This document shows, piece after piece, positions 12,750-61,981 of a DNA stretch of 64,000 bases. The DNA is from Acidobacteria bacterium Ga0077551 (GTDB taxonomy: Bacteria > Pseudomonadota > Alphaproteobacteria > Caulobacterales > Hyphomonadaceae). The stretch lies in contig LNFC01000019.1 of assembly GCA_001464545.1 (NCBI GenBank), forward strand, positions 1-64,000, written 5' to 3'. The stretch's first letter is position 1; each line of letters starts with the position of its first letter. The position numbers were made by a program, and so were the translations under genes. The notes under the pieces are model-generated. The model was not told the DNA's origin, ran no database searches, and saw only the letters and a program-made list of their open reading frames with translations.

Positions 12750-13063
12750 GTGTATCCTCCATGCCATTTGCCCGGCAGGCGCCGCACCGCAGGCCGAATT
12801 CCGGGCACGCGCATCCCCACACCCGGCCTTCGCCCTCCGCGAGAACAAGCGATAGGGAACCGATACGAAGTGATGAAAAATGAGAATCGCTGAGAGAAAA
12901 TCACTATCCGAAGTGCACGGATTGAAACGGAATGACACGGTTTGGCAAGGCGAGGCGCAGGCCTGCGCCTACAGGCAACACGCCCCTGGAGACATAAACT
13001 CCGACCCGATCAAGCCGCAGGAAAACGTGCCCCGGCTCCTTGCGCAACCCCTCCGGCCACGGA
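12750..13063 (+). repeat. copy A of the ~400-bp dispersed element (5' part diverged)
   Basis: This gene-free stretch between two convergent genes matches the elements at 48147-48547 and 61557-61955. Shared blocks in order are: CCGCAGGCCGAA-TCCG; a GA-rich stretch; the best block CGATACGAAGTGATGAAAAA followed by TGAGAATCGCTGAGAGAAAA (12871-12900); TGACACGGTTTGGC (12932-12945); TGCGCCTACAGGCAACACGC (12964-12983); and the right end TTGCGCAACCCCTCCGGCCACGGA (12 + 12 nt, 13040-13063). The left part, upstream of about 12750, is not clearly alignable. A 66-codon frame (12880-13080) runs through it with no convincing ribosome site. Confidence 0.75.
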
Positions 13064-13071
13064 GCGCCGCC

Positions 13072-46344: not shown

Positions 46345-48124
46345 ATGAGCGAGAATCAGGCCGGTGCGCCGCCCCTTCGCGGCGTCGATGTCATCAAGGA
46401 CAACCTCTCCCGGCTTCCGTCGAAGCCGGGCGTCTACCGCATGTTCGGGGACGCCGACGAAGTCCTGTACGTCGGCAAGGCCCGCGACCTGAAGGCCCGC
46501 GTCTCCAACTATGTCCGCCTCGGCGGCCACACCCAGCGCATCGCCCGGATGATCCTGCAGACGCGGCGGATGGAATTCGTGGTCACCGAAAGCGAGACCG
46601 AGGCGCTGCTGCTCTGCTGCGCGACGACAAGTCGTTCCCCTACATCCTGATCCGCCGCAACCACGAGGCGCCACAGATCAAGAAGTATCGCGGCTCGAAA
46701 CAGGACGAGGGCGACTATTTCGGCCCCTTCGCCAGCGCCGGCGCCGTGATGCGCACGCTCGACACGCTGCAGAAAGCCTTCCTGCTGCGCACCTGCGAGG
46801 ACAGCGTGTATTCCGCCCGCACGCGCCCCTGCATGCTGCACCAGATCAAGCGCTGCGCCGCGCCCTGCGTCGGGTTGATCTCGAAGGAAGACTATGAGGA
46901 GCTTGCGAACGAGGCGGCCGACTTTCTGCGCGGGAAGGGGGTCGGCCTGCAAAAGCGGCTCGCGACCGAAATGGAAGCGGCGCGCTCGCGCATGTGCTGT
47001 CGACGCAGGACGTGAACCCGGACGGCATCGAAGAGGCGGACGTCTTCGCCATCGCGATGGACGGCGGCGTCTCCTGCGTGCAGGTCTTCTTCATCCGCGC
47101 CGGTCAGAACTGGGGCGCTACCGTCCACTTCCCGCGCCACGAACGTGATCAGGGGGCGGAGGAAATTCTCGCCGCCTTCCTCGTCCAGTTCTACGACAAG
47201 CGCCCGCCGCCGCGCCTCATCCTCGTCAACGAGTTGCCCGAACAGGCCGAGCTGATCGCCGAAGCGCTCAGCCTGAAAGCCGCGCGCAAGATCGAGCTTC
47301 GCAAGCCGGAACGCGGCGCCAAGCGCGACCTCCTCACGCAGGCCGAACGCAACGCCGCCGAGGCGCTCACCCGCAAACTGTCGGAGACCGCCAGCCAGGA
47401 ACGCCTGCTGCTGGAAGTGCAGAAAGTGTTCGAGCTGCCGGAAGTCCCCGAACGGATCGAAGTCTACGACAACTCCCACATCCAGGGCACCAACGCCGTC
47501 GGCGGCATGGTGGTCGCGGGCCCGGAAGGCTTCCGCAAGGGCGCCTACCGGAAGTTCAGTATCAGGGACACCGAGATCACCCCCGGCGACGATTTCGGCA
47601 TGATGCGCGAAGTGATGCGCCGCCGCTTCGCCCGCGCGCTGAAGGAACGCGAGGCCGGGCAGGACCAGGACTGGCCGGATCTCGTGCTGATCGATGGCGG
47701 CCTCGGCCAGCTCAACGCGACCATCGAAACCCTCGCAGAACTAGGGCTGACCCCGGACGATGTTACCCTCGTCTCGATCGCCAAGGGCGTCGACCGGAAT
47801 GCCGGCCGCGAGCAGTTCTTCCGGCCCGGCCGCGCGCCCTTCAAGCTGCCCGAGAACGCGCCCGTCCTCTATTACCTCCAGCGCCTGCGCGACGAGGCCC
47901 ACCGCTGGGCCATCGGCGCTCACCGCCAGAAACGCGCCGCGGAAGCTGCCCGCTCCCCGCTCGACGAGATCGAAGGCATTGGCCCGACGCGCAAGAAGGC
48001 GCTGCTCCACCATTTCGGCTCCGCCCGCGGCGTCTCGCGCGCCAAGGTCGCCGACCTCATGCAGGTCGACGGCGTCAACGAAGCCCTCGCCATCCGCATC
48101 CACGGCCACTTCAACGGCGGGTAA
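46345..48124 (+). pseudogene. uvrC: excinuclease ABC subunit C, broken by two small deletions
   Basis: All UvrC regions are recognisable in three frames. Frame 1 begins with the GIY-YIG-like [20 protein letters not shown] and stops after ETEALLL. Conserved [11 protein letters not shown] then resumes in a second frame at about 46618, where about 14 codons (ANLIKRLKPRYNV-like) should lie. The second frame ends after ATEMEA (about 46982) and a third starts with [15 protein letters not shown], about 15 residues missing. Downstream: [30 protein letters not shown] and the C-terminal helix-hairpin-helix ([16 protein letters not shown]). Both losses are 1 mod 3 (about 43-49 nt). If real, the cell lacks nucleotide excision repair; an assembly error is equally possible. 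Confidence 0.85.
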
Positions 48125-48146
48125 ATTTCAGCTGCCGCCCGGCCTA

Positions 48147-48547
48147 TGCAACACAATCCGCCCCCTCCGGAAACAAAAAAATCCGTAAGGGCCTCAAGCG
48201 CCTGAAAGATTTTTCCGCAAAACGCGCGCCACACCCCTCCGGCCGGGGATATACTCAGCCTCAAACTACACCACAATCGCAATACAAGGTCGGATAGAGG
48301 CCGCAGGCAGAAATCCGACACCCCCGAGAGAAGCCGAGAAACAAACGATACGAAGTGATAAAAAATGAGAATCAATGAGAAAAATTCGACATCAGGAATG
48401 CAAAGCCTGCAACAAAATGAGGCCGTCTGTGAGCGCAGCGGGGTGACTTGCGCCTACAGCCAACACGCCGTCCCAAAAAAAAACCCATCCTCATCAAGCC
48501 GCTATGAAATCCGCCCTCAAACCTTGCGCAACACCTCCGCCCACGGA
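48147..48547 (+). repeat. copy B of the ~400-bp dispersed element
   Basis: This fills most of the 580-bp gap between uvrC and ssrA. It aligns along its whole length with the reverse complement of 61557-61955 and over its right part with 12750-13063. Its left end TGCAACACAATCCGCCC (48147-48163) resembles its own right end GCGCAACACCTCCGCCC, so the element is bounded by imperfect direct repeats. Inside: a CCCCT-N6-GGGG hairpin followed by TATACT (48235-48256); the block CGATACGAAGTGATAAAAAA then TGAGAATCAATGAGAAAA (48347-48384); AATGCAAAGCCTGCAACA; and TGCGCCTACAGCCAACACGC. No transposase and no clear gene. The remainder (48548-48668) shows only the ssrA upstream region. Confidence 0.8.
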
Positions 48548-48668
48548 TCTATCGAAAATACTGGATTCAAGACCCTCAACTCCCATGTCATGGGATGACC
48601 CAACTCCTCAGGGCCGGGGGCCGTTTCAGTCCTCCACAGGCAATGCCGGGCGTTAAGGTTTCAGGGGC

Positions 48669-48697
48669 TTACACCGGCGCCCCATATCCCCTATACT
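48669..48697 (+). promoter_or_regulatory. ssrA promoter
   Basis: TTACAC (48669-48674) and TATACT (48692-48697) are spaced by exactly 17 bp. The predicted start near 48704 lies directly upstream of the acceptor part of the tmRNA. Confidence 0.75.
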
Positions 48698-48703
48698 GGC
48701 TCT

Positions 48704-49015
48704 GTCTTCGGACTATGGCGATAAATGCGCGTGTAATAAGCGGCTCGGACCCGGGGGCGGTACCCGGCAGCTCCACCAAAAGACGGCCTCGTTAGCCGTT
48801 TCCTGATGGGGCTGAAATAGTGTCGACGGACGTGTAAAGACGAGGCTTTCGCTCGCTTGAGCTGCGTTAGAAGCTCAAAAGCAAATAGTTGCAAACGACA
48901 ACTTTGCTGAGGGCGAACTGCTCGCCGCGTAAGCGGTGACGGTTTTTCCGACCTAAGTCCTACGGTTTCAGACCCGTAGGCGGGGCCCGGGGGCGCCTGG
49001 CAACAGAAGCCCCCA
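48704..49015 (+). ncRNA. ssrA: two-piece (circularly permuted) tmRNA
   Basis: Rescues stalled ribosomes by adding a degradation tag. The acceptor half comes first, as in alphaproteobacteria. A T-arm (CCGGG/CCCGG, 48751-48767, 7-nt loop) is followed by acceptor strand CAGCTCC (48768-48774), discriminator A and CCA ending at 48778. A 29-nt spacer to be cut out follows, then the coding half starting GGGGCTG (48808-48814). GGGGCTG pairs with CAGCTCC and gives a G3-U70 pair, the alanine identity element. The tag frame at 48891-48932 reads ANDNFAEGELLAA then stop. Pseudoknot-like stems follow to about 49015. Ends are approximate. sspB at 59329 encodes the adaptor for this tag. Confidence 0.93.
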
Positions 49016-49034
49016 CCTTATCCCGCCTGTCAGC

Positions 49035-60373: not shown

Positions 60374-61555
60374 ATGGCTGATGATCCGAAACCGCTGCCC
60401 GGCATCCCGCAATCCGTCCTCGAACTCTCCGCGTTCAATCCTGTCGCCCGCGACAACCCGCATCCGCTGCTGCAGTCGCTGCAGGCCGGCTGCCCGGTGA
60501 TGCGCGACGAGACCGCGAAGGTCTGGGTGCTCAGCCGCTACAAGGACATCCGTGACACGGTCAACGACCGCAGTTTTGTGCGCCATCCGCTGAATGCCGA
60601 TCCGGAGTCCATCACCGCGCGCCTTGTCGATCCGGAAAGAGACCGGCGCACAAGTATCCTCTTCCTCGATGATCCCGACCATGCCCGCATCCGCCAGCCG
60701 CTGGCGAAGGCCTTCTATGCCCGCATCAACAAGATGCGTCCCGAGATCGAGGCGATGGTCGAAGAGGTCGCCGTGCCCGTTCCGGTGCTCGTGATTGCCC
60801 GCATCCTCGGGGTGGATGAAGCCATGCTCACGAATTTCCGTCAGTGGTCGGAAGATGTGATCCTCGGCCTGAACCCCGTCCGCACGCCCGAGGAAAACGC
60901 CCGCATGCTGTCCGGCGGCGAAGCGCTCGACGCCTATTTCGCCGAGCTGATGCAGGCGCGCCGCAAGGCGCCAAAGGATGATCTCGTCACCGACATGGTG
61001 CAGCTGCAGGCCAGCGGCGAGGCGAAGATCGAGGACGATGAAGTCTGCCTCAACCTGCAGGCCCTGCTGGTCGGCGGCAACCTGACGACCACCGATCTCA
61101 TCGGCAACGGCATCTGGCTCCTGCTCACGCATCCGCAGCAGGCCGCCGCCCTGCGCGCCAATCCGGATCTCGCCGCGCAGGCGGTCGAGGAAGTGCTGCG
61201 CTACGAGGCGCCGGTGCAGGTGACCTCGCGCATCGTCGAGAAGGACCGCACCGTTGCCGGCTGCCCGATGCAGAAGAGCCAGCCGGTCTTCATGTCGCTC
61301 GCCGCCGCCAACCGCGACCCTGACGTGTTCGAGGCTCCGCAAGCCTTCGACGTCACGAAGAAGCGCGCCAGCCATATCGCGTTCGGCGGGGGGCCGCACA
61401 TCTGCATCGGCGCCCCGCTCGCGCGGATCGAGGCGCGCCACGCCTTCCTCAAGCTCCTGGCCCGCTACCCGAACCTGCGCCTGCCGGAGCAGGACCTCAC
61501 TTGGCGAACGCTTCCTTTCTTCCGTGGTTTGGAAAAATTGGTGGTGGAGGGCTGA
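60374..61555 (+). CDS. cytochrome P450
   Basis: 393 residues from the ATG at 60374 after GGAGGAG. Core motifs: I-helix GGNLTTTDLIGNG (about 235-247), E-x2-R in EEVLRYEAP (about 276), and the heme loop FGGGPHICIGAPLAR (about 338-352) with the axial Cys. The protein lacks a signal peptide, as usual for soluble bacterial P450s. Between QPLAKAFYARI-NKMRPEIEAMVEEV and AVPVPVLVIARILGV (about 125-140) roughly 17-20 residues normally present in the family are missing. The electron donor genes are not nearby; the Rieske-type gene at 63506 is an unlikely partner. Confidence 0.9.
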   Translation: MADDPKPLPGIPQSVLELSAFNPVARDNPHPLLQSLQAGCPVMRDETAKVWVLSRYKDIRDTVNDRSFVRHPLNADPESITARLVDPERDRRTSILFLDDPDHARIRQPLAKAFYARINKMRPEIEAMVEEVAVPVPVLVIARILGVDEAMLTNFRQWSEDVILGLNPVRTPEENARMLSGGEALDAYFAELMQARRKAPKDDLVTDMVQLQASGEAKIEDDEVCLNLQALLVGGNLTTTDLIGNGIWLLLTHPQQAAALRANPDLAAQAVEEVLRYEAPVQVTSRIVEKDRTVAGCPMQKSQPVFMSLAAANRDPDVFEAPQAFDVTKKRASHIAFGGGPHICIGAPLARIEARHAFLKLLARYPNLRLPEQDLTWRTLPFFRGLEKLVVEG

Positions 61556-61556
61556 T

Positions 61557-61955
61557 TCCGTGGGCGGAGGGGTTGCGCAGGGATTCCGGGGCTAGCTTGG
61601 AATGATCTGAGGGGATTGGATTTTATCTTTCGCACAGGGCGTTTCCTGTAGGTGCAAGTGGGCCACTGTTCCTCGCCAAACTGTGTCAGGCTGTTGCAGG
61701 CTTTGCATTCGGCATGTCGATTTTCTCTCATTGATTCTCATTTTTTATCACTTTGTATCGGTTCTTTCTCGCCCTCTCTCGGGGCGAGCGGATTTCGGCC
61801 TGCGGCCTCGATCCGCCCTACGGTTTGCCGGTGTGCGGGGGTGAGGCTTAGTATAACCCCGCGCGCAGGGGTGTGGCGCAAGTTTCCGGGCGGAAACTTG
61901 TCGCGGATTGATCCGTAGGGGGATTTCTTCGAGGCGAGGGGCGGAAATGGTTGCA
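61557..61955 (-). repeat. copy C of the ~400-bp dispersed element (minus strand)
   Basis: Read on the minus strand this is the closest match to copy B: same order, same length (399 versus 401 bp) and imperfect direct repeats at the ends (TGCAACCATTTCCGCCC at 61955-61939 and GCGCAACCCCTCCGCCC near 61577-61561). The CCCCT-GCGCGC-GGGG hairpin before TATACT has a different loop from that in copy B (CCGGCC) but the same stem. Blocks GATACAAAGTGATAAAAAA, TGAGAATCAATGAGAGAAAA and AATGCAAAGCCTGCAACA are almost identical to copy B. The element begins 2 bp after the P450 stop and ends about 25 bp from the RusA-like stop. It fills the whole 426-bp gap. Confidence 0.82.
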
Positions 61956-61981
61956 CAAGGCTGGCTCAGGTTCGCCTCGGC

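Follow-up and report, generated by a model that had tools for sequence, protein, structure and literature searches.

A repeated element beside uvrC and at two further sites of the window

The window, the 64-kb stretch of DNA analysed here as a whole, lies on contig C19 of its own genome (G000; assembly of 3.08 Mb, 92% complete). Between the stop codon of uvrC and a promoter-like site of the tmRNA gene (48668-48697) it contains copy B of a dispersed element, of which two more copies, A and C, are found elsewhere in the window (Table 1). The tmRNA itself (48683-49023) is permuted and of the alphaproteobacterial type, with the tag ANDNFAEGELLAA.

The similarity of the three copies, reported in an earlier note on this DNA, was found again independently within the window. 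It appears there as inverted pairs at 48287-48429/61677-61819 (83% identical), 12831-12950/61671-61790 (74%) and 48220-48263/61842-61885 (84%), and as a direct pair at 12996-13063/48480-48547 (71%). By whole-genome BLASTN, copy B matches copy A with E=6e-48 (74% over 329 bases) and copy C with E=2.5e-18 (71%). The similarity of the copies is far above chance. Copy C lacks the left third of the element, as the earlier note had stated.

The long form of the element has the order R'-REP-array-M-R, in which two homologous units of about 110 bp, R' and R, form a direct repeat. As read from its bases, copy B has a degenerate or lost GTAG foot at its REP. The hairpin of M is degenerate in copy B and clear in short copies.

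Table 1 Features of the three copies in the window.
Feature	Position	Strand	Basis
Copy B, long form (R'-REP-array-M-R)	48142..48567	+	Profile match, 389 bits
Insert at copy B	about 48124-48663		Empty-site comparison with relatives
R' of copy B, homologous to the leader of the ORF family, TATACT box kept	48143..48262	+	Model R1, 83.5 bits
REP-type hairpin GTCGGAT...ATCCGAC of copy B	48289..48319	+	Near-identical sequence beside RAYT gene in G011
Array of copy B, YGA(T/G)A sites at 10-11 bp spacing, core GTGATAAAAAATGAGAATCAATGAGAA	48325..48384	+	
M of copy B, variable middle	48385..48446	+	
R of copy B, the second R unit, which stops short of the TATACT box	48447..48552	+	Model R1, 57.6 bits
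Copy A, long form	61554..61960	-	Profile, 345 bits
R' of copy A	61843..61959	-	Model R1, 76.6 bits
Array-M-R of copy A	61557..61781	-	Core profile, 178 bits
Copy C, without R'	12789..13065	+	Profile, 148 bits
Diverged REP-like hairpin GCCCGG...CCGGGC, left of copy C	12770..12806	+	Aligned with REP

Long and short forms, distribution and placement

The earlier note had predicted that many copies would exist in the genome, and this proved correct: copy B gave 36 BLASTN matches in the whole genome, and a profile recovered 33 copies above 80 bits. Fourteen of these approximately 33 copies are long (R'-REP-array-M-R, ~420 bp), and the 19 others are mostly short (array-M-R), some of them cut. G037, the closest relative of G000 in the genome set, has 20 long and 19 short copies (profile matches above 40 bits). 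The core alignment (A3) was reduced by hand from 61 core matches to 52 through removal of near-identical copies, partial matches and others; the alignment of long copies (A4) has 31 out of 34 from G000 and G037, together with eight from G025 and G036.

Short copies begin at the array and retain the complete R end, consisting of TTATACTCC and then ATG. In long copies the TATACT box is absent from R and retained in R'. All 31 aligned long copies of G000 and G037 have a REP placed between R' and the array; it is absent from five of the eight long copies of G025 and G036 and from most short copies.

Among 299 genomes sampled from the order, which excluded the element carriers G025 and G036, the array core pattern (at most two mismatches) was detected in three, all of them Hyphomonas, with 30, 40 and 1 sites, and the reversed pattern gave zero sites in the same sample. 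At the sensitivity applied, copy B matched nothing in collections of plasmids and phages. None of the 24 G000 copies compared was more than 86% like another, and therefore nothing indicates present activity.

The 3 kb around one short copy are 97.4% identical between G000 and G032 (L028, G000:C22:505213-508256; L039, G032:C12:38981-42024). The uvrC genes of these two genomes are only about 89-90% alike, and G032 has a single array copy; the similarity suggests a recent exchange of this segment. Furthermore, a recurring type of hairpin, CCCTCACCTCCC...GGGAGGTGAGGG, was observed in the right flanks of short copies and the left flanks of some R-ORF loci (described below). Occurring beside both forms of the element, it seems to be another dispersed repeat.

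Placement was read against predicted genes for a non-redundant set of 45 copies. The left neighbour is directed toward the element in 37 of them (three copies had no left gene called), and the gap to this gene is often below 30 bp. Convergent genes enclose 25 of the 45 copies, 12 are co-directional with both genes, three run against them and two lie between divergent genes; only one reaches more than 60 bp into a predicted gene. The element strongly prefers the 3' side of a gene pointing in its own direction.

Filled, empty and collapsed sites

We examined 14 sites, namely copy B, twelve sites by joined-flank queries in five genomes, and copy A. An empty counterpart was present in a relative at seven of the 14, and a lone R unit at two. 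At the copy B site, between uvrC and ssrA, G037, G033, G036, G032 and G038 have 16-30 unaligned bases, compared with about 542 in G000, and their uvrC flanks are 89-95% identical; the site is also empty in G025 and G034. The 401 bp that the earlier note assigned to copy B hold as a region of similarity, but the inserted DNA is longer. At the seven sites with an empty counterpart, insert lengths range from 467 to 582 bp, against -2 to 91 bp in the empty counterparts. The cleanest case is G037:C1:195159 compared with G034, with 511 bp inserted and zero spare bases.

Six of the twelve joined-flank sites were empty in at least one relative. Two-sided matches showed four to be occupied in a relative (G000:C21:105502 and C22:195603 in G037; G037:C1:75751 and C22:37300 in G025), and G037:C16:3352 was uninformative. 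G037:C1:32448 carries the long form in G037 and a single R of ~112 bp in G000 and G025. The copy A site contains the full element in G000, G025 and G036; in G037 the left gene is followed by one R unit and then the right gene. This lone R (98 bp, 89%) corresponds to R' in its left part and to R at its end, a composition that is the expected product of recombination between R' and R.

An orthologous copy in G037 was identified for 26 of the 33 G000 copies, and two more were added by the flank query and the R model, and therefore most insertions are older than the split of G000 and G037. Copy C has an orthologue in G037. The site G000:C23:219349 is filled in G000, G025 and G036 and empty in G037, so clean loss or exchange occurs too.

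In intergenic flanks too diverged for a firm reading, no clean target-site duplication was seen at the inserts: the candidates CAAGGGCT/CAAGCGGCT at one site and TTTCAG at copy B are too weak to claim. A search of seven inserts for terminal inverted repeats gave nothing consistent, the best matches being 5-10 bp with one mismatch and at differing offsets. In shuffles, the terminal match of G037:C15:49781 was reached by 0 of 60, the only such case among the seven inserts, and that of copy B by 4 of 60. The element contains no transposase. A coding role was rejected, as the longest frames of both strands stay within Markov expectation and no three-base rhythm is seen in column entropy; ORFs of 66 and 77 aa are present in copies C and B.

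The search for orthologous gaps with and without the element, proposed in the earlier note as its check, thus yielded both kinds. With the empty sites and the lack of a coding signal, the guess made there of a non-autonomous mobile element is supported. Judged from these sequence comparisons, the long form is a mobile insertion that is also able to collapse by recombination.

R units precede a multicopy ORF family

A model of the R unit, built on sequence only and with filters that drop weak matches, located units in 24 of 42 Hyphomonas genomes. In the loci that we read from array-less genomes, R ends with TATACT or a one-base variant, and 6-8 nt further on an ATG opens an ORF of ~130 aa. This R-ORF arrangement is seen in G033, G034, G022, G021 and others; the ORF is broken in L211 and L212. 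R is the predicted leaderless-promoter region of a multicopy gene family of ~130 aa.

No family assignment was obtained for the ORFs in Pfam (5 members), NCBIfam (2), PHROGs (10) or PADLOC (10). One sub-threshold Pfam match and one weak PADLOC match were disregarded, as was a single weak PDB match to a repeat protein (E=0.0055). The family was matched in 39 of the 42 Hyphomonas genomes, with up to 18 copies per genome and two in G025, and gave no match in G000, G036 and G037. Order-wide, 19 of 150 genomes sampled had matches, 13 of them Hyphomonas and six of one sister genus (weak matches). The proteins are rich in tryptophan (G007, G011, G018, G021-G023, G033, G034 and others; L253-L292).

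For three of four ORF groups (all but L290/L291), differences among copies at codon positions 1, 2 and 3 amounted to 4.5, 3.8 and 24.5% (five copies of G018), 4.9, 4.9 and 15.4% (three copies of G007) and 6.2, 2.5 and 14.5% (six copies of G011). By this codon pattern, the predicted family is under purifying selection. An uncharacterised, apparently selected, multicopy gene family with a putative leaderless promoter has in this way become visible in Hyphomonas.

Of 17 gene-bearing R loci examined, seven follow a gene that is also followed by a short copy in G000 or G037; six different genes are involved. None of the 17 lies behind a gene followed by a long copy, apart from a shared dispersed flank motif of 43 bases. 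In a uvrC tree of 21 genomes, the four array-bearing genomes form a group nested inside the gene-bearing ones; its support of 74/75 is modest and rests on one gene, and G032, with its single copy, was assigned to no group. On these observations, units of R and gene are most likely ancestral and the gene-less form derived.

Several of these loci have additional features. The gene-bearing units of G011 (L278-L284) are flanked by a direct repeat of ~38 bp containing CTCATCCTGAGCGAAGTCGAAGGAT, a further dispersed motif. L252, in the region of G025:C14:26204, has a 37-bp palindrome, CGTCATTGCGTATGCATCGATTGCATACGCAATGACG, with perfect 16-bp arms, before R and in the place of M. R units also lie less than 170 bases from several contig ends (for example G034:C94, C222 and C119; G033:C322 and C157), as if near-identical copies break the assembly, and the copy counts of G033 and G034 are therefore probably lower bounds.

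The REP module and the M hairpin

In their REP module, and only there, many long copies contain a palindrome with an unpaired GTAG foot, GTAGGTCGGAT...ATCCGAC. The hairpin equals the REPs that flank a gene for a REP-associated tyrosine transposase (RAYT) in G011 (NF047646, 178.5 bits). Together with the presence of a REP in every aligned long copy of G000 and G037, this identity raises the question of whether the whole is a REP/BIME-type element, moved by a RAYT acting on the GTAG REP. We consider this unlikely. The REP sits in the middle of the element and not at its ends, most of the G025 and G036 long copies and of the short copies do without it, and a lone REP apart from the element is also present in G000. 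Furthermore, the Y1 transposase model PF01797 had no match in the 92% complete G000 assembly, although this model detects the G011 RAYT weakly and a diverged one could be missed. The statement of the earlier note that no described family fits consequently has to be divided: in the searches made it stands for the element as a whole, and it fails for the REP module, which is of a described type.

The structured RNA suggested in the earlier note is not supported, apart from a hairpin in short copies. RNAalifold predicted 0 pairs in both the 52-copy core alignment and the 39-copy long alignment, and with Rfam covariance models at gathering score the neighbouring tmRNA was the sole match, the element having none. 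The M hairpin of short copies behaves differently, with 73.6% of cells paired and a covariation score of 0.197, compared with a mean of 0.123 in shuffles (0 of 500 as high) and at most 0.107 in a slid alignment. These values come from 33 of 43 hairpin segments (alignment A7), ten having been removed by eye as mis-anchored or poorly fitting, which favours the hairpin. A reading as structured or small RNAs, with transcription running rightwards out of the R' TATACT box, can draw on this hairpin and on the box itself, which is among the best-kept parts of R' and occurs likewise before the ORFs and the tmRNA. However, short copies lack the upstream R' start, and the + strand at 48000-48700 contains no terminator-like site, which together with the folding and Rfam results makes such a reading quite improbable. 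Scanning copy B for promoters and terminators yielded the promoter-like site of the tmRNA and, on the - strand, a single terminator-like site, a yield below that of shuffles.

A helically phased array under constraint

In 45 copies, 159 of 179 spacings between YGA(T/G)A sites are 10 or 11 bp; in 300 first-order shuffles such spacings numbered 1.5 on average and never more than 7. All but one of the remaining 20 spacings equal two or three turns. Several copies have an extra array unit with the phase preserved, and conservation along the core autocorrelates at 10-11 bp. As the 45 copies are related, the phasing counts as one strong pattern and not as 45 independent tests.

We then compared orthologous copies, using 24 of the 26 pairs. 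Columns at least 90% conserved among the other copies differed between orthologues in 171 of 2726 comparisons (6.3%) and variable columns in 318 of 1453 (21.9%); third codon positions of the flanking genes differed in 511 of 4222 (12.1%). Conserved columns thus change 3.5 times less than variable ones, a trend repeated for each consensus base. Within the core, the 12-base stretches that change least are CAACACCTCCGC (R, 3.5%) and AAAATGAGAATC (array, 4.2%). The orthologue was the best match in 23 of the 24 pairs, and broad homogenisation is therefore unlikely, though short blocks may have been converted. Part of the constraint could stem from uneven mutation or gene conversion, or from variable columns being poorly aligned.

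These data bear on a possible, if doubtful, alternative in which the same mobile mosaic is inert after insertion. The copies would then be decaying remains of R-gene units, with constraint acting in the master copy only and appearing in the present copies through gene conversion or uneven mutation. Over the whole element, orthologue identity is indeed 88% for long copies (n=10) and 89% for short ones (n=14), against 88% at flanking third codon positions, and much of M and the spacer changes fast. Inert copies are harder to reconcile with the slow change of conserved columns for every base alike and with the extra-unit arrays that are still in phase, and the best-match result makes wholesale conversion unlikely.

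The array is probably retained as a candidate protein-binding site. The recruitment of a nucleoid protein, conjectured in the earlier note, is possible and gains partial support from the phasing and the orthologue constraint. The motif TGAGAATCA, which we take to resemble a Fur box, was rejected as one on account of its spacing of 10 bp, not 6.

Repeats of the CIR type in Caulobacter have a conserved CcrM site, GANTC, and this site is found in the array core of 22 of 23 long copies here. A methylation-linked long repeat built on GANTC is nevertheless very improbable, as the core of only 9 of 22 short copies has the site and another 9 of the 22 have no GANTC anywhere.

Interpretation and comparison with known repeats

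Taken together, we interpret the repeat, with a probability of roughly 0.72, as a mosaic, non-autonomous mobile element that is clade-specific and resides between Hyphomonas genes, and whose array is retained as a probable protein-binding site. It is composed of modules that are also dispersed separately: the R unit, the REP hairpin and the phased array. R-gene units would represent the ancestral form. In the ancestor of the array group the gene would have been lost, and the gene-less array-M-R, later R'-REP-array-M-R, would have spread instead. Since the element has no enzyme of its own, either a function supplied in trans or recombination of one R unit with another would have moved it. It would be lost when R' recombines with R, which leaves one R. 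After insertion, selection may keep the array and the two R blocks, and the helically phased sites may bind an oligomeric DNA-binding protein downstream of genes; we hold these last two steps with moderate confidence.

A more far-reaching reading would make the R-ORF units a new class of mobile element with the ~130-aa protein as its mobiliser. The gene-less derivative would have displaced them in one clade and become a set of helically phased docking sites across the chromosome, located behind genes and recognised by a dedicated oligomeric DNA-binding protein with a role in organising the nucleoid or transcription ends. We regard this as a long shot. On the preferred reading of a mosaic mobile element, a mobile repeat family appears to have been caught changing its state, gene-bearing across the genus and gene-less in one group; comparison of orthologous sites reveals both its fresh insertions and its collapsed copies. 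Were the array a binding site, a mobile element would have spread about 33 equal platforms to the 3' ends of genes, a directly testable case of repeats turning into chromosome architecture.

The literature searched contained no described family of such repeats in Hyphomonas. The CIR repeats of Caulobacter, the rhizobial RIME and ABC and the Bru-RS of Brucella are alphaproteobacterial intergenic repeats that are long, mosaic and lineage-bound, and the present element is alike in all these respects when compared by description and not by sequence. It differs from CIR in that GANTC is not kept in short copies, and CIR, RIME, ABC and Bru-RS are not known to have a phased 10-bp array. A solo-LTR is the recombination product of direct repeats flanking an inner part. 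The element is similar in having direct repeats around an inner part and a lone repeat at two orthologous sites; however, R is not an LTR, and no reverse transcriptase or integrase was found.

GTAG REPs are hypothesised to be miniature transposons mobilised by RAYTs, according to PMC3733652. The REP-shaped hairpin, the GTAG foot in many long copies and the RAYT-flanking position in G011 agree with the REPs and REPtrons outlined there. In contrast to that outline, the REP is here one inner module of a ~420-bp element formed mostly by R, array and M, short copies and some of the long ones lack it, and G000 yielded no RAYT. With MITEs and other small non-autonomous elements of bacteria (PMC10969869, PMC2229807), the element shares its non-coding, multicopy, dispersed and intergenic nature, sites that are empty in relatives and a plausible descent from a gene-bearing unit. 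Unlike MITEs, it has R'/R direct repeats and no consistent terminal inverted repeat, and its gene-bearing R-ORF relative, which shares R, encodes no recognised transposase. Finally, RepRanger lists 3,707 REPs for Hyphomonas jannaschiana VP2, as given in PMC12306157, and abundant palindromes in Hyphomonas are therefore already published.
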